Source of the DNA: Erythrobacter dokdonensis DSW-74
GTDB lineage: Bacteria; Pseudomonadota; Alphaproteobacteria; Sphingomonadales; Sphingomonadaceae
Assembly (NCBI RefSeq): GCF_001677335.1
Contig: NZ_LZYB01000002.1
Location: forward strand, 124,001 to 188,000
Length of the DNA: 64,000 nt
Direction: 5' to 3'
The notes below the pieces were generated by a model that saw only the letters and a list, made by a program, of their open reading frames with translations, was not told where the DNA came from and made no database searches. The first letter of the stretch is position 1; each line of letters begins with the position of its first letter. This document shows positions 16,627-21,833 of this stretch, in pieces. Both the position numbers and the translations under genes were made by a program.

Positions 16627-18816
16627 ATGGCGTTTTTCGACCGATTCTGGAAAGGCTCCCGCGGCAGCGCCGGCAACGGCGGACGGAGTGATTTGCCCGC
16701 GGGCTTCTACCCGCTCTACGAATCGATGCGTCCCATCGACGAGGACGAGGACGATCTCCCTCCGCGCCCTCGTCCTTCCGCCACGCCCGATTTCGAGGCG
16801 TGGGATGCCAAGCTTGCCGGGCTCGACGAGGCGCTCGAAGTCGAGGAGAAGCGCCGCCTCAGGTGGTGGCAGCGCGATTACTGGCGCGCGCGCTCGAAGC
16901 TGTGGTGGACGGGGCGCGGCATCATGGCCGCCTCCGCGCTGTTCGCATTGCTGATCGGCTGGCTTGCCGTCACCGCGCCGCTATCGAAGAGCCTCGAACC
17001 CATCGCCCCGCCGCAGGTCACGCTGCTTGCCCGCGACGGCACCCCGATTGCGCGGCAGGGAGCGATCGTCGAGGCGCCGGTCAGGCTCGCCGACCTGCCG
17101 CCGCATGTCCCCCAGGCCTTCATCGCGATCGAGGACCGGCGCTTCTATAGCCACTGGGGCATCGACCCGCGCGGCATCGCGCGCGCGGCGTGGACGGGCT
17201 ATGGCGGCGGTTCGACCATCACCCAGCAGCTTGCCAAGTTTACCTTCCTCACGCCCGAGCAATCGCTCAGCCGCAAGGCGCGCGAGGCGTTGATCGCCTT
17301 CTGGCTCGAAGGCTGGCTGACCAAGGACGAGATCCTCGAGCGCTACCTCTCCAACGCCTATTTCGGCGACAACCAGTATGGCCTTCGCGCCGCGTCGCTG
17401 CACTATTTCTACCGCCAGCCGGAAAACCTGAAGCCCGAACAGGCGGCGATGCTGGCGGGGTTGCTGCAGGCGCCCTCGCGCTATGCGCCGACCCGGCATT
17501 ACGACCGGGCGAAGAGGCGCATGGACCTCGTGATCGGGGCGATGGTGCAGGAGGGCTACCTGACCGAGGCCCAGGCCCGCGCGCTACCCGATCCGCGGCT
17601 CGATGTGCGCAGGCGCGACGACAATGTGCCGACCGGCACCTATTTCGCCGACTGGGCGCTGCCGCTGGCGCGCGAGGGGATCGAGGCGAGCTATTCGAAG
17701 CAGGTGATCTCCACCACGCTCGATTCGCGGCTTCAGGCGCTCGCCAGCCGGGTGGTGGCGCGCGCGCCTCTGAACGGAGCACAGGTCGCGCTGGTCGCCA
17801 TGCGCCCCAATGGCGAGGTGGTGGCGATGGTGGGAGGGCGCGACTATGCCAAATCCCCTTTCAACCGCGTGACCCAGGCCCGCCGCCAGCCGGGTTCGAC
17901 CTTCAAGACCTTCGTCTATCTCGCGGCGCTGGAGGCCGGGTGGGAGCCGGACGACACCATCCCCAACACCCCCATCACGCAAGGCAGCTATCGCCCCAAG
18001 AACGCGCGCGAACGCTATTCCGAGCAGATCACGCTGGAGGATGCCTTCGCGAGTTCGAGCAATGTCGCCGCCGTGCGCCTCTTTCAGGCGGTCGGCAGCC
18101 AAAAGGTAATCTCCACGGCGCGGCAGCTGGGCATCACTGCTGCCATGCCGGAAGGCGATCCCAGCCTCGCGCTCGGCACCTCGGCCATGACACTTATGGA
18201 GCTGACCGCCGCCTATGCCGGGATCGCTGCCAATGATTATCCCGTCGAGCCGCACCCCTTCGCGCGCGGCGAGCGCGGCTGGTGGGAATGGCTCACCAGC
18301 CGGCAGGAGAGTTTTGCGCGCTCCACCCACGAGGATATCGAGACGATGCTGCGCGCCGCGATCAATCGCGGGACCGGACGCAATGCCGTGCTGCCCGTCG
18401 CAAATTTCGGGAAGACCGGCACCACGCAGGATTACCGCGACGCGCTGTTCGTGGGCTATGCGGGCGATCTGGTGGTGGGCGTATGGGTCGGCAATGACGA
18501 CAATACCCCGATGAAGGGCATCACCGGCGGCAGCACGCCTGCGCGGATCTGGCGCGACTTCATGCGCGGCGCATTGAAGCTCGAAGCTGCCCCGCAGCCC
18601 AAGACCACCGCCTCGCCCGATCCGGAAGGCCCGGTCCAGCCGCTCGATATCGAGGAAGGGGCCGAGATTCCGGTCGGCGAGAACGGCGCCACCCTGCGCA
18701 TCGACGGCAACGGGGTAACCCTGTCGCAGGAGGGCGTTCCGGTGGAGCTCAGGCTGGGCGAGGAAGGGCTGGTGGTCCAGCCTGCGCCCTCTCCGGGCGC
18801 GTCGCCGCCACCCTAA
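16627..18816 (+). CDS. bifunctional class A penicillin-binding protein (PBP1A type)
   Basis: This 729-aa cell-wall synthase has an unusually long acidic and basic cytoplasmic tail (residues 1-95), one membrane span (about 98-119), and a GT51 glycosyltransferase domain with catalytic E169 in AIEDRRFYSHWG. The transpeptidase domain has SxxK S424-K427, SxN 477-479 and KTG 596-598. A proline- and acid-rich C-terminal tail follows. It polymerises lipid II and crosslinks peptidoglycan in the periplasm. It starts 51 bp after cobS and ends convergently with a thioesterase gene, sharing a CTAA that holds both stops. It is somewhat shorter than classical PBP1A and resembles the PBP1C/MtgA-like forms of alphaproteobacteria. 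Confidence 0.93.
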   Translation: MAFFDRFWKGSRGSAGNGGRSDLPAGFYPLYESMRPIDEDEDDLPPRPRPSATPDFEAWDAKLAGLDEALEVEEKRRLRWWQRDYWRARSKLWWTGRGIMAASALFALLIGWLAVTAPLSKSLEPIAPPQVTLLARDGTPIARQGAIVEAPVRLADLPPHVPQAFIAIEDRRFYSHWGIDPRGIARAAWTGYGGGSTITQQLAKFTFLTPEQSLSRKAREALIAFWLEGWLTKDEILERYLSNAYFGDNQYGLRAASLHYFYRQPENLKPEQAAMLAGLLQAPSRYAPTRHYDRAKRRMDLVIGAMVQEGYLTEAQARALPDPRLDVRRRDDNVPTGTYFADWALPLAREGIEASYSKQVISTTLDSRLQALASRVVARAPLNGAQVALVAMRPNGEVVAMVGGRDYAKSPFNRVTQARRQPGSTFKTFVYLAALEAGWEPDDTIPNTPITQGSYRPKNARERYSEQITLEDAFASSSNVAAVRLFQAVGSQKVISTARQLGITAAMPEGDPSLALGTSAMTLMELTAAYAGIAANDYPVEPHPFARGERGWWEWLTSRQESFARSTHEDIETMLRAAINRGTGRNAVLPVANFGKTGTTQDYRDALFVGYAGDLVVGVWVGNDDNTPMKGITGGSTPARIWRDFMRGALKLEAAPQPKTTASPDPEGPVQPLDIEEGAEIPVGENGATLRIDGNGVTLSQEGVPVELRLGEEGLVVQPAPSPGASPPP

Positions 18817-19205
18817 ACCATCAGGATGTTCATTACCGCGGTCGCAATCGGGCGGGCACGGTCATCCTGCCACGCCTCGACCGCGACATTGGCATTGCGC
18901 CGGCCAAGGCGGGTTATGCGCCCGATGGCAAAGCTCGGGCGCGATTTGCCTGCGGCGAGATATTGCACGGTGATATTGATCGGCTTCAATTGCGGATCGC
19001 GGCCCGATGCCTTCAGCGCCGCATGGAGCGCGGCGTAGCCCGCCGTCTCCAGCAGGCCGGCAGTGGCGCCGCCGTGGAAATGCTGCGGGCGGCCTTCCAC
19101 CGTCGGGCCGAATTCGACTGTCAGCAGCGGCATTCCAGCCTCCTCGCCGCAGACCGTGATCCCCAGCGAGCGGGCATAGGCGGGCAGTTCGAGCATCTCA
19201 GCCAT
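18813..19205 (-). CDS. PaaI-type hotdog thioesterase (second of a pair)
   Basis: This 130-aa single hotdog-fold protein has HFHGGATAGLLETAGY (about residues 44-59), the catalytic helix of PaaI-like acyl-CoA thioesterases, followed by PINITVQYLAAG. The start at 19205 overlaps the stop of the upstream thioesterase by 8 bp; ATG 19196 is an alternative. The two hotdog genes in tandem may form a heteromer or derive from duplication, although their sequences are quite different. The acyl-CoA substrate is unknown. Confidence 0.85.
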   Translation of the reverse strand: MAEMLELPAYARSLGITVCGEEAGMPLLTVEFGPTVEGRPQHFHGGATAGLLETAGYAALHAALKASGRDPQLKPINITVQYLAAGKSRPSFAIGRITRLGRRNANVAVEAWQDDRARPIATAVMNILMV

Positions 19206-19680
19206 CCGCACTGTCACCTTGCAATGCAGGATTGTCCTTCCGCGGATCGGCACCGATGGTCATGAACACCCCTGCGACATGGGCGACCGGATCCTGCGGA
19301 TCGCCATCATGCGCGATGCCCCGCACAAACGCGGCCGAGCGCGTGCGGCGATAGCATTCGACCCTTCCGCGCACGCTTGCCCGTTCGCGCGCCGGGCGCT
19401 GGTAATCGACCCTCAGATCGAGCGTGGCGACCGGATTGAAGGTTCCGCCGGCCTGCCAGATTGCCATGCCGCTCGCCATGTCCATCAGGCTGATGATCGG
19501 GCCTGAGGCAAGCACACCGCTCTTGCTGTCCCCCACCAGATCCTCGCGCCAGGGCAGTTCAAGTTCGACCCAGTTGTCGCCCTGCTCGGTGAATCGGAGG
19601 CCCAGCCATCCGGTGTGGCCGTGACGGAAGAACCATTTCGATGCTTCGCGGGCATCGAACCGGGCAGAGGGCGTGTTCAT
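19198..19680 (-). CDS. PaaI-type hotdog thioesterase (first of a pair)
   Basis: This 160-aa hotdog-fold protein contains GPIISLMDMASGMAIW (about residues 60-75), the family helix with its conserved aspartate, then NPVATLDLRVDYQRPA, the strand that lines the active site. An N-terminal extension (FFRHGHTGWLGLRF) precedes the fold. The start at 19680 is chosen; ATG 19692 is possible and neither has a good ribosome site. It is co-transcribed with the second thioesterase. Its promoter region (19681-19812) is shared with the divergent three-gene cassette. Confidence 0.82.
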   Translation of the reverse strand: MNTPSARFDAREASKWFFRHGHTGWLGLRFTEQGDNWVELELPWREDLVGDSKSGVLASGPIISLMDMASGMAIWQAGGTFNPVATLDLRVDYQRPARERASVRGRVECYRRTRSAAFVRGIAHDGDPQDPVAHVAGVFMTIGADPRKDNPALQGDSADG

Positions 19681-19790
19681 GGTGCGCTGCATAGGAGCGC
19701 CGGGACGCCGGTTACAATCATTTAATTTCGCGGGAAGGGCCCCGTCGGTCAGCCTGCCGGGCAGCGGTTCGGCAAGGGGGCCGGTACCGC

Positions 19791-19801
19791 TTGATCATCA
19801 A
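19791..19801. promoter_or_regulatory. 11-bp palindrome at the ribosome site of the 53-aa peptide gene
   Basis: TTGATCATCAA is a palindrome around a central base pair. It ends where the AAGGAGA ribosome site of the peptide gene begins (19801-19807). It could be a small operator. It is not an FNR box, because the spacer is one base instead of four. Confidence 0.3.
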
Positions 19802-19812
19802 AGGAGAACATC

Positions 19813-19974
19813 ATGGAATTTCCCAGGATCGATTTCGACCAGATCCCCGCGCTTGAAGGTGCCCAGGCGTTGTTCGGCTCGGCGCTGCAGGCGACCAGCG
19901 CCGCGCTCGATGACCGGATCGTGGATCTGATGGTCTACATCTACGAGGTCATGCCGCCCGAAACGGTGCTTTGA
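19813..19974 (+). CDS. 53-aa acidic peptide, first gene of an unrecognised cassette
   Basis: AAGGAGAACATC before the ATG is one of the best ribosome sites in the window and supports this short gene. The peptide begins MEFPRIDFDQIPALEG and is acidic. It has an amphipathic stretch (about residues 15-47, with QALFGSALQATSAALDD) and ends in VMPPETVL. It has no cysteine, signal peptide or double-glycine motif. It lies 21 bp before the 311-aa gene and is surely co-transcribed with it. I do not recognise it. It may be a substrate (RiPP-like precursor) for the cupin-like protein downstream, or a small structural partner of the other two. Confidence 0.8.
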   Translation: MEFPRIDFDQIPALEGAQALFGSALQATSAALDDRIVDLMVYIYEVMPPETVL

Positions 19975-19995
19975 GGCGGCCGGGGCGACAAGACG

Positions 19996-20931
19996 ATGCA
20001 CGTCCATCCGGACATCGCGGGGCTGCGGCGCAAGGGCGCGTCGCAGCCCAGCCTTGATGCGGCGCTGGCGCGGTGGCGGGCCTTGCCCGCAACGGCTGAA
20101 CTGCTCGAGGCGCTGGCAGCTTATGGTGCCGGGGCCGCGCTCGAAAGCCGGCCTGTGCTGGCGCGTCTGTTGCAGGAATGCGGCGCTGCCGCTTGTCTGG
20201 CAGCCGGTTTCATCGATGGCCTCGCCGAAGCGCTGCGCGCCGAGCCGCTGGCACAATTGCCGCTTGGCCATGCGACGACACCGGGCCTGGCGCGCATCGT
20301 GATCGCGCAAAGCGGCCGCGCGGCGCTGCGCCTGGCGGCATTTGCGCCGCGCGACGCCGCGCCCGCCGAAGCCGTGCTGTTCGAGGATGGCGAGGCGCAT
20401 GAGATCGTGCTTGCCGGAACCGGGCAGGCCGCGCTCTACCGGCTCGCCGCTGGCCTACTGACCGGGGAATCGCTCGTCTGTGGCCCCGGGACGCGAATGG
20501 CCCGGCAGGGCGCGCACGAGGCCCGCCAGATCGTCGCGGTATCCCGGCCGCTGCTGGTGCTTCAACTTACCCGCACCCCGGTAAGGCCGGTCTCCTCGCG
20601 CGAATATGCGCTGCCGGACGGTGCGCTCGTCAAGACGATCAGCGGCTCGAAGCACGAAAGCCAGCAGATGATGGCGCTAGGCGTGCTCGGCGCGCTGCGC
20701 CACGCGCCCGCGCTTGCCGAAATGGAGCGGCTGGCGCTTGATCGTCGCGCCCATCGCGACCTGCGCTGGGAGGCGCTGCGCCAGCTGCTCGGGCTCGACG
20801 CGCGCGCCGGAATGGCGGTGCTGGCACAGCTGGCGGGCGAGCCGCGGGACGAGCTTTGCCCGCCTGCCGCAAGCCTCAGGCGCGATCTGCTCGCCGCCCA
20901 TCCGCAACTTGCCTTGTCGGAGCCTGCCTGA
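19996..20931 (+). CDS. 311-aa protein with HEAT-like C-terminus, unrecognised cassette
   Basis: I do not recognise this family. The N-terminal third is alanine- and leucine-rich helical. The middle (about residues 125-200) alternates short beta strands and turns, with ALFEDGEAHEIVLAG and LLVLQLTR, and could be a small cupin-like barrel. The C-terminal 100 residues (KTISGSKHESQQMMALGVLG onward) contain helix pairs that read like HEAT repeats (LRWEALRQLLGLDARAGM). The start at 19996 has only a weak ribosome site, so it may be translated by reinitiation after the 53-aa peptide. Its stop overlaps the next ATG by one base (TGATG). Confidence 0.75.
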   Translation: MHVHPDIAGLRRKGASQPSLDAALARWRALPATAELLEALAAYGAGAALESRPVLARLLQECGAAACLAAGFIDGLAEALRAEPLAQLPLGHATTPGLARIVIAQSGRAALRLAAFAPRDAAPAEAVLFEDGEAHEIVLAGTGQAALYRLAAGLLTGESLVCGPGTRMARQGAHEARQIVAVSRPLLVLQLTRTPVRPVSSREYALPDGALVKTISGSKHESQQMMALGVLGALRHAPALAEMERLALDRRAHRDLRWEALRQLLGLDARAGMAVLAQLAGEPRDELCPPAASLRRDLLAAHPQLALSEPA

Positions 20932-21833
20932 TGCCGCTCGTGATCGACAATCCCTCGCCCGAAACCTGCAGCCTGCCCCAAGCTATCGAGGCGCTGGCCG
21001 AACAGGGCTTTGATCCCGACGATCCCGCCAGCCTCGCGGCGGCCGCATGCTGGCTGCGGCGGTTGGCGAATAATCGCGAATTTCTCGGTGATCTGCTGGT
21101 CGAGCGGCTGGCGGGCAATGGCGGGGAGGACATTGCCTCGGCATATGGTCCGCAGGCGATCATCCTCAGCCGCCCGCGCGCTGGGCGAGCCAACAGCGCC
21201 TTCCTGCGCGCCGCGATCTGGCCTTCGCCGCGCGACCACGTGTTTCGCACCAGCGGCGCGGCGAGCTTTGTCTATGGCGCGCCGCATGATCACAATTTCG
21301 ACTTTCTGACAGTGGGTTACTGCGGCCCGGGCTATGCCAGCGACTACTACGAATATGACTATGCGGCGGTCGCGGGCTATCCGGGCGAGGATGCGTCCTT
21401 GCGCTTTGTCGGCCGCTCGGTGCTCTCGCCCGGCAAGCTGATGCTTTATCGCCGTCATCTCGACGTGCACAACCAGCTGCCGCCGACAAGTCTGTCGGTC
21501 TCGCTCAACGTGATGCGGGTCGATCCGGCGCAGGGGTGGTTCGACCAGTACGGGTTCGACCTCGAACGCGGCACGGTGGCGCGCTGGCTCAACCCGCTGG
21601 CGGGCGAGGCCTTTCTGCGCGTCGCCGTGGCGAGCGGGGCGGCGAGCGCGAGGGACTATGCCGAATGGGTCGGTGCGCGCCATCCTAGCGAGCGGATGCG
21701 GTTGGCGAGTTTCGAGGCACGGGCCGACATGCTCGACGATCCGGCCGAAGCGGACGCGCTGTGGCGGGCAGCGGAGCTGTCGGGCAGCCGGATGGTCGCA
21801 GGCGCGGCGCGGGCGCGGCGCGCCGTGCTCTAG
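20931..21833 (+). CDS. 300-aa cupin-like putative metal-dependent oxygenase, unrecognised cassette
   Basis: Residues 110-205 read like a bicupin-type barrel. GAPHDHNFDFLTVGYCGPGY supplies an H-x-H pair, and SDYYEYDY a cluster of tyrosines and acids. LSPGKLMLYRRHLDVHNQLPP carries the P-G turn and two more histidines at the position of cupin motif 2. Helical segments flank it on both sides. This suggests a non-heme metal enzyme, but I know no named family. It is translationally coupled to the 311-aa gene by TGATG and ends in a CTAG shared with convergent ruvX. Together with the 53-aa peptide it forms a compact three-gene unit. Confidence 0.7.
   Translation: MPLVIDNPSPETCSLPQAIEALAEQGFDPDDPASLAAAACWLRRLANNREFLGDLLVERLAGNGGEDIASAYGPQAIILSRPRAGRANSAFLRAAIWPSPRDHVFRTSGAASFVYGAPHDHNFDFLTVGYCGPGYASDYYEYDYAAVAGYPGEDASLRFVGRSVLSPGKLMLYRRHLDVHNQLPPTSLSVSLNVMRVDPAQGWFDQYGFDLERGTVARWLNPLAGEAFLRVAVASGAASARDYAEWVGARHPSERMRLASFEARADMLDDPAEADALWRAAELSGSRMVAGAARARRAVL

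Follow-up and report, generated by a model that had tools for sequence, protein, structure and literature searches.

The 64,000 nucleotide stretch of Erythrobacter dokdonensis DSW-74 analysed here (assembly GCF_001677335.1, contig NZ_LZYB01000002.1, positions 124,001 to 188,000; the whole stretch is called the window and all coordinates refer to it) harbors an operon-like set of three genes on the forward strand, encoding in this order a 53-residue peptide, a 311-residue protein (gene 2) and a 300-residue protein (gene 3). The gene of the peptide, a putative precursor or substrate, occupies positions 19813..19974 and is preceded by the ribosome-binding site AAAGGAG (19800..19806), six bases upstream of its ATG; by eye, G/A-rich stretches of a similar kind are found upstream of most peptide starts in relatives. 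After a gap of 21 bp follows gene 2 (19996..20931), whose product is predicted to be a cupin devoid of metal; its closest fold is that of the thiol dioxygenases, its N-terminus is helical and its C-terminus HEAT-like. A TGATG stop/start overlap (20929..20933) connects it to gene 3 (20931..21833), a predicted 3-His metal oxygenase of the thiol (cysteine) dioxygenase fold with a helical tail. Open reading frames (ORFs), overlap and ribosome site were read directly from the nucleotides, and in all of these, coordinates, protein lengths and gap included, an earlier annotation made from the letters of the window (the original prediction) proved exact. It had named no family for any of the three proteins, and neither Pfam nor NCBIfam contains a model matching one of them, even at an E-value of 10. 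It had also taken the gene order for the layout of a peptide-modifying system, the reading with which the present analysis is concerned.

In the order to which the window belongs, relatives of the cassette are frequent. A scan of the contigs of named genomes yielded 125 stretches with gene 3 relatives, of which 80 were kept, the closest named relatives as judged by gene 3 being Erythrobacter and Porphyrobacter; furthermore, 55 of 196 genomes drawn from the order carry a gene 3 relative, and within the genus of the window 8 of the 11 genomes listed do so, its own among them. The two samplings together comprise 110 loci, the window copy included, with some species present in both. Gene order is the same throughout and the spacing mostly tight and similar: the peptide gene is separated from gene 2 by 4 to 47 nt, and genes 2 and 3 most commonly overlap by 1 or 13 nt (gap -1 or -13); the few larger spacings trace to truncated matches or broken genes. 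By tblastn the peptide is detected upstream at 103 of the 110 loci. Five of the seven misses show a clear peptide by eye and the contigs of the other two end inside the operon, so that the peptide accompanies the other two genes at all 108 loci with enough upstream DNA, the window included, and the co-occurrence that the original prediction had proposed to check is indeed observed. Truncated or near-identical sequences were left out of the alignments, which consequently hold 46 (A1, A2 and A3) or 62 (A4 and A5) sequences from the 110 loci.

At the 64 loci with long flanks, the neighboring genes are conserved in order as well: relatives of ruvX, an esterase gene, lepB and acpS are found at 57 and two PaaI-type thioesterase genes at 45. 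This conserved neighborhood points to a mostly vertical inheritance of the cassette in Erythrobacteraceae and related Sphingomonadales, where the cassette keeps its site and nothing beyond the three-gene core is observed. The median ratio of non-synonymous to synonymous substitution rates (dN/dS) of close pairs, which are not independent of each other, is 0.26 for the peptide (73 pairs), 0.29 for gene 2 and 0.15 for gene 3 (75 pairs each). Judged by its sequence variation, the peptide thus behaves as a translated gene under purifying selection. Two genomes (G074 with L132 and L133, G145 with L135 and L169) contain a second, divergent cassette with a peptide of its own, located after genes that by eye are yidC-like or engB-like.

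With 9 Asp/Glu against 2 Lys/Arg and no Cys, the peptide is acidic and cysteine-free, as had been described. Alignment A3 (46 sequences) suggests two parts, namely a conserved, possibly leader-like N-terminal part comprising residues 1-24 (19813..19884; family consensus MxLPKIDLxSLPxLDxxTGxFGSL) and an acidic-hydrophobic C-terminal segment comprising residues 33-47 (19909..19953; DDRIVDLMVYIYEVM), which by alignment and composition may represent the core. Cysteine is absent from 98 of 103 alphaproteobacterial peptides and present in the remaining five.

The AlphaFold2 models of genes 2 and 3, each predicted singly on 62-row alignments, are confident, with a predicted local distance difference test score (pLDDT) of 95.7 and 92.7, respectively, and both depict a cupin fold. 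For gene 3, the best Foldseek match is mercaptosuccinate dioxygenase (8vni, E 4.1e-8, template modelling score 0.42 by query and 0.60 by target), with JmjC and dimethylsulfoniopropionate lyase cupins ranking lower. In the VIA structure comparison the best 50 rows all belong to the thiol dioxygenase fold (CDO, MDO, mercaptosuccinate dioxygenase, plant cysteine oxidase, ADO and ergothioneine dioxygenase), the best match being 4tlf (Z 13.3, 162 residues, root-mean-square deviation (rmsd) 3.3, 22% identity). Independently of the model, the gene 3 profile A7 aligns with six CDO_I proteins (set A8, i.e. six of the seven proteins matched by PF05995, a 367-residue protein having been left out) at an hhalign probability of 79% and a pairwise E of 1.6e-5. 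In this alignment HDH is placed on HDH, D-x-H on D-x-H and the SVSLN segment on the S-I-H stretch, with SxS in register.

The cupin-style histidines that the original prediction had recognised in the segments GAPHDHNFDF (H119, H121) and RRHLDVHNQ (H176, H180) of gene 3 are present, and three of them form the predicted metal site: the motif H119-D-H121 (21285..21293), aligned to the HDH of the CDO_I proteins, and H180 as third ligand (21468..21470), located in a D-V-H sequence aligned to their D-x-H. All three are invariant in each aligned set, i.e. in 62 (A4), 22 (A6) and 23 (A7) sequences. R93 is invariant as well, as far as conservation alone goes; the substrate-binding arginine of CDO is Arg60. 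In the excerpted text of PMC10966181, the S-H-Y motif of thiol dioxygenases is given as Ser155, His157 and Tyr159 of MDO. The corresponding positions of gene 3 in the A7/CDO_I alignment read S191, N193 and M195. Asn occupies the second position in 62 of 62 sequences of A4 and 23 of 23 of A7, a Lys being found in one of the 22 of A6 (L136), and Tyr is absent from the third position in the A6 and A7 rows shown. PF05995 itself does not match gene 3 of the window in the Pfam scan, even at E 10, nor is it one of the 11 families to which the 46 sequences of A1 give a match at E <= 1. A search of the PDB sequences with gene 3 returned two matches only, at E about 2, and searching the PDB with the profiles of genes 3 and 2 returned none. 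Because gene 3 departs from the S-H-Y motif and PF05995 gives no match, it is assigned to the CDO fold by prediction and is not filed as a known thiol dioxygenase; since Asn replaces the His of the triad and Tyr is missing, a changed reaction appears plausible from the alignments. The possibility raised at the outset, that the 300-residue protein falls in a known non-enzymatic family, is not borne out by the model, which predicts the fold of an enzyme family around three invariant histidines. C-terminal of the cupin, a helical, HEAT-like tail is formed by residues 225-299 (21603..21827; helices in the model), which is missing from gene 3 of the short relatives L130, L163 and L164. In Qipengyuania marisflavi and a matching genome (L028, L088) gene 3 is broken by an in-frame stop, and the module can therefore decay.

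Among the nearest folds of gene 3 are plant cysteine oxidase (PCO) and ADO (VIA Z about 10 to 11), which act on peptide N-termini according to the available parts of two sources (PMC11406360, PMC12630348). Gene 3 might accordingly be an oxygen or redox sensor, oxidising either the peptide or some other protein at its N-terminal residue, as in the N-degron signalling by these enzymes, and a vertically inherited cassette would fit signalling. However, none of the peptides listed starts with Met-Cys, nearly all alphaproteobacterial ones lack Cys altogether, and the exporter genes found beside some distant copies (see below) would be left unexplained, and we regard a sensor as very improbable. Modification of the peptide by thiol oxidation was likewise considered and set aside, as Cys is lacking; it may hold for some distant peptides, L145b, L141 and L158b, in which a Cys is found in a G-x-x-C setting.

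Gene 2 had originally been described as a HEAT-like protein. This stands for its last third, the tail of residues 219-308 (20650..20919), which is helical in the model and matches HEAT_2 in relatives; the middle of the protein, residues 90-216 (20263..20643; strands spanning residues 92-215), is a ten-strand cupin in the model instead. At E <= 1, HEAT_2 of Pfam is matched by 23 of the 46 members of A2 (best E 6.9e-5), which concerns the C-terminal third only, gene 2 of the window being without a match, and gene 2 of L145 has a HEAT match beyond the cut-off (E 5.2e-9). In the VIA comparison the thiol dioxygenase fold accounts for 47 of the best 50 rows, led by 8vni (Z 10.5, 161 residues, rmsd 4.0), and the cupin of CENP-C superposes with Z 9.3 and an rmsd of 1.6 over 91 residues. 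As far as the models go, the fold assignment of gene 2 is less specific than that of gene 3. No alignment column reaches 85% His in 62 sequences, the best standing at 74%, and in a set of 26 diverse members none of the columns with 90% conservation is a His. The models lead us to picture gene 2 as a metal-free cupin twin of gene 3, both carrying helical tails, and from the predicted folds we infer a common origin of the two.

Outside the order the cassette is sparse. Profile searches found it in 5 of 385 genomes of the class (one outside the family), in 15 of 398 of the phylum (two outside the family), in 6 of 81 relatives of genome G839, in 3 of 79 of G683 and in 1 of 61 of G512 (itself only), as well as in 2 of 369 genomes of the class of G839, one of the two being G839 itself. 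Where a centre genome was itself part of the search it is counted, and the figures for the class (385), the phylum (398) and the class of G839 (369) are lower bounds, as few candidates per genome were scored. Two plasmids, of Alteromonas stellipolaris (CP013927) and of Vibrio sp. ED002 (NZ_CP080241), contribute further copies; their hosts are Gammaproteobacteria, to which the other loci outside the class of the window probably belong too. Phage records searched with gene 3 gave no match. At each of the 27 distant copies gene 3 is directly preceded by an ORF (gaps -32 to +15), which in 20 cases matches the gene 2 profile A2 at E below 1e-4. Each of the 27 also has a small ORF nearby; 24 of these look convincing by eye, that of L161 lying downstream of the pair, and those of L129, L165 and L168 are doubtful. 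Many of the encoded peptides have an acidic or LPxLD-like N-terminus and a V/I-rich stretch at the end, and they are hardly alike although the enzyme is. An NCBIfam search with ten of them returned a single weak match (E 0.12).

On the Vibrio sp. ED002 plasmid (L165, 5267-6823) a divergent cupin pair is followed by a short ORF and has a Tn3 transposase, a recombinase and restriction-modification genes as neighbors; this is likely a mobile copy. In L168 (7073-8302) a Cupin_8/JmjC-type gene precedes the pair, with a divergently oriented ORF of 50 residues and its AGGAGG site between them. In L130 and L163 both cupin proteins are short and lack the helical tail, and their genes lie 3' of genes that by eye resemble RND efflux systems; the HlyD of L163 is a Pfam match.

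At four of the 12 loci outside the class of the window (L145, L158, L159 and L162) the cassette is directly adjacent to ABC transporter genes. The Alteromonas stellipolaris plasmid CP013927 (L145) depicts the arrangement HlyD, ABC ATPase, MacB/FtsX permease, two peptides, gene 2, gene 3, ABC ATPase and ABC-2 permease; in the PLSDB gene table of this region (CP013927.1, 62122-74910), which is incomplete, 11 of the 12 features are hypothetical and both peptides are unlisted. In L158 and L159 two peptides precede gene 2, gene 3, an ABC ATPase (in L159 by position and by eye) and an ABC-2 permease. In L162 two complete sets of peptide, gene 2 and gene 3 flank an HlyD-ABC-MacB trio, followed by a further ABC ATPase and a 254-residue protein without a Pfam match; just past the end of this cluster (L162, 3500-14000) a 2-oxoglutarate-Fe(II) oxygenase gene is found on the other strand. 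A further ABC ATPase, recognised by eye, lies about 5 kb away in L160. The tandem peptides of L145, L158 and L159 have dissimilar C-termini and share one enzyme pair each. Short tandem peptides together with enzymes, exporters and an ABC-2 pair are a usual layout of modified bacteriocins, and by this analogy the exporter-adjacent copies show the layout of a bacteriocin cluster or of a cluster for a ribosomally synthesized and post-translationally modified peptide (RiPP). In some bacteria outside the class of the window the module seems to form part of bacteriocin-like clusters whose product, possibly of two peptides, is exported.

The tandem peptides and transporters of these distant relatives speak for the peptide-modifying layout seen by the original prediction, which nevertheless needs revision in two respects: gene 2 is not just a HEAT protein, and gene 3 is predicted to have a fold of the 3-His thiol dioxygenase type. 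Because an enzyme of this type meets peptides that are cysteine-free in 98 of 103 cases, its reaction on the peptide is not obvious. The same clusters might also be read as a toxin-antitoxin-like arrangement, in which the peptide is a membrane-active toxin that the two cupin proteins neutralise or hold without any oxidation chemistry. The C-termini of several distant peptides are very hydrophobic (mean Kyte-Doolittle value above 3 over 12 residues in L134, L131, L158a and L162a), and the ABC-2 transporters beside some copies could confer immunity. A mere holder would not need a metal site, however, and gene 3 keeps its site unchanged across a very broad range of relatives, while the alphaproteobacterial peptides are only weakly hydrophobic; a toxin held by two inert cupins is therefore given very little credence here.

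Taken together, the cassette is interpreted with moderate confidence as a minimal peptide-maturation module in which the peptide is the substrate oxidised by the gene 2/gene 3 pair, a confidence carried mainly by the co-conservation of the three genes, by gene 3 and by the cluster context. In this scheme, gene 3, with its 3-His thiol dioxygenase fold, would act as a non-heme metal oxygenase and gene 2 would be its metal-free cupin twin, probably as an obligate partner and perhaps as the holder of the peptide. The two proteins would form a heteromer which recognises the conserved N-terminus of the peptide docked on it, and the 3-His metal would use O2 to oxidise something in the acidic-hydrophobic C-terminal segment; the product of the transporter-bearing clusters would then be exported. 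The peptide as substrate, its leader and core halves, the chemistry, and processing or export are all points that we infer. For the bare three-gene core of Erythrobacteraceae and related Sphingomonadales, a signalling or membrane-associated role may be envisaged.

A number of observations weigh against this interpretation. As far as chemistry is concerned, thiol dioxygenases act on thiols, yet few alphaproteobacterial peptides contain a Cys, and the S-H-Y triad of these enzymes is replaced by S-N-M in gene 3. For gene 2, generic cupins superpose nearly as well as thiol dioxygenases (VIA Z 8.9-9.3), and in Foldseek an auxin-binding protein is the top match, with mercaptosuccinate dioxygenase 8vni in second place and many plain cupins among the other matches. 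Since profile comparisons of gene 2 with gene 3 and with CDO_I are both not significant, it is the predicted fold that argues for its kinship. Seven of the 27 distant gene 2 ORFs (L129, L130, L131, L134, L163, L164 and L165) are assigned by position only, and the peptide profile A3 is matched (E below 0.001) by only 6 of 16 distant peptides. At the other eight loci outside the class no adjacent ABC pair was found, one of them being only 4.5 kb long and not every ORF having been profiled. The hydrophobicity of the C-terminal segment in the alphaproteobacterial peptides is barely above that of shuffled peptides (1.92 vs 1.80). In the mirror-tree comparison of 47 loci the three genes correlate with each other at 0.48 to 0.59 (partial correlation), values that none of 2000 permutations reaches; the RuvX control correlates with the same genes at 0.40 to 0.52, and the test thus did not discriminate.

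The strongest of the alternatives is that the peptide is no substrate at all, but a third subunit or regulator of a heteromeric dioxygenase acting on a small molecule, i.e. a thiol or another metabolite. In alphaproteobacteria the peptide gene mostly occurs as a single copy, its conservation extends into the C-terminal segment, and it is inherited vertically in a housekeeping neighborhood; a subunit or regulator would account for this as readily as a secreted product. Among the nine neighbor families traced no exporter is seen beside the alphaproteobacterial copies, nor is a protease identified there. Small-molecule thiol dioxygenases are, furthermore, among the best structure matches of gene 3. 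On the other hand, two peptides with dissimilar C-termini for one enzyme pair (L145, L158 and L159), as well as the exporter context, would be odd for a subunit, and so would distant peptides that hardly resemble each other despite an enzyme that does. A subunit or regulator is for these reasons held to be unlikely, with a chance of perhaps one in a handful, and peptide maturation is retained as the preferred interpretation.

In the window itself the cassette is surrounded by genes for thioesterases, PBP1A, ruvX, an esterase and lepB, named mostly by eye, of which lepB and ruvX are taken as ordinary housekeeping genes. The two thioesterase genes (18813-19692) overlap each other, lie on the opposite strand and are PaaI-like, the family name being given by eye; they are the ones with relatives at 45 of the 64 long loci mentioned above.

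Carrying peptide maturation further, one arrives at a new class of ribosomally made and modified peptides, in which an active cupin of the thiol dioxygenase fold would assemble with its metal-free twin into a heteromer and oxidise non-thiol residues of short hydrophobic peptides by means of O2 and a 3-His metal. In some bacteria, which are probably gammaproteobacteria, the products would be exported bacteriocins of one or two peptides, encoded by clusters that are in part mobile; in Erythrobacteraceae and their kin the module would have turned into a conserved function of the chromosome. This wider proposal is tentative, and we would put its chances slightly below even. To our knowledge, enzymes of the thiol dioxygenase fold have so far been known for small thiols and N-terminal cysteines; if the pair does oxidise the peptide, they would join the tailoring enzymes of ribosomal peptides, with a built-in metal-free partner. 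As none of the three proteins of the window has a Pfam or NCBIfam model, tools dependent on these collections would probably miss such clusters. The versions with two peptides may encode antibacterial peptides not described so far. In open-access full text, with subscription papers and preprints outside the scope, no CDO-fold RiPP enzyme and no HEAT repeats joined to RiPP clusters of this kind were found among the matches listed.

In order to compare the cassette with known systems, the thiol dioxygenases of CDO_I (PF05995; CDO, 3-mercaptopropionate and mercaptosuccinate dioxygenases) have to be considered first. They share with gene 3 the predicted fold, the HDH...DxH ligands and a significant pairwise profile match, whereas gene 3 lacks a match to PF05995, reads S-N-M for S-H-Y, carries a long helical tail and is accompanied by a metal-free twin and a peptide gene. 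PCO and ADO have the same fold and, as far as the excerpts of the sources cited above extend, act on peptide or protein chains; the peptides of the cassette, in contrast, have no N-terminal Cys. We know of no twin subunit for either PCO or ADO.

With regard to gene clusters, darobactin-type clusters harbor HlyD/ABC/MacB export genes beside short precursor genes. L145 and L162 resemble them in their HlyD-ABC-MacB trio beside short precursor genes, but no radical SAM protein is found among the genes profiled here, and the copy in the window has no exporter. Two-peptide bacteriocins such as enterocin DD14 likewise consist of two short hydrophobic peptides in tandem, as in L145, L158 and L159. Enterocin DD14 is leaderless, and leaderless bacteriocins are unmodified according to the excerpted texts (PMC7332713, PMC9865063); here, however, two cupin-fold genes follow the peptides, and the window contains a single peptide.

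The RiPP systems built on MNIO (DUF692) enzymes, PbsQ or cupin-4 enzymes share with the cassette a small precursor, an oxidative metal enzyme and a partner protein. They differ from it in that gene 2 is predicted to be a cupin and not a known RiPP recognition domain, and MNIOs belong to another fold. In the available part of one report, the JmjC-related, cupin-like protein PbsQ of an MNIO RiPP system hydroxylates the precursor (PMC12257519), and cupin-4 enzymes, members of another cupin family, are described in excerpts on NHLP-type clusters of sponge symbionts (PMC9426513); in these excerpts neither has the CDO fold. As PbsQ already acts on a RiPP precursor, the presence of a cupin in such clusters has a precedent; what would be new is one of the CDO fold, paired with a metal-free twin.

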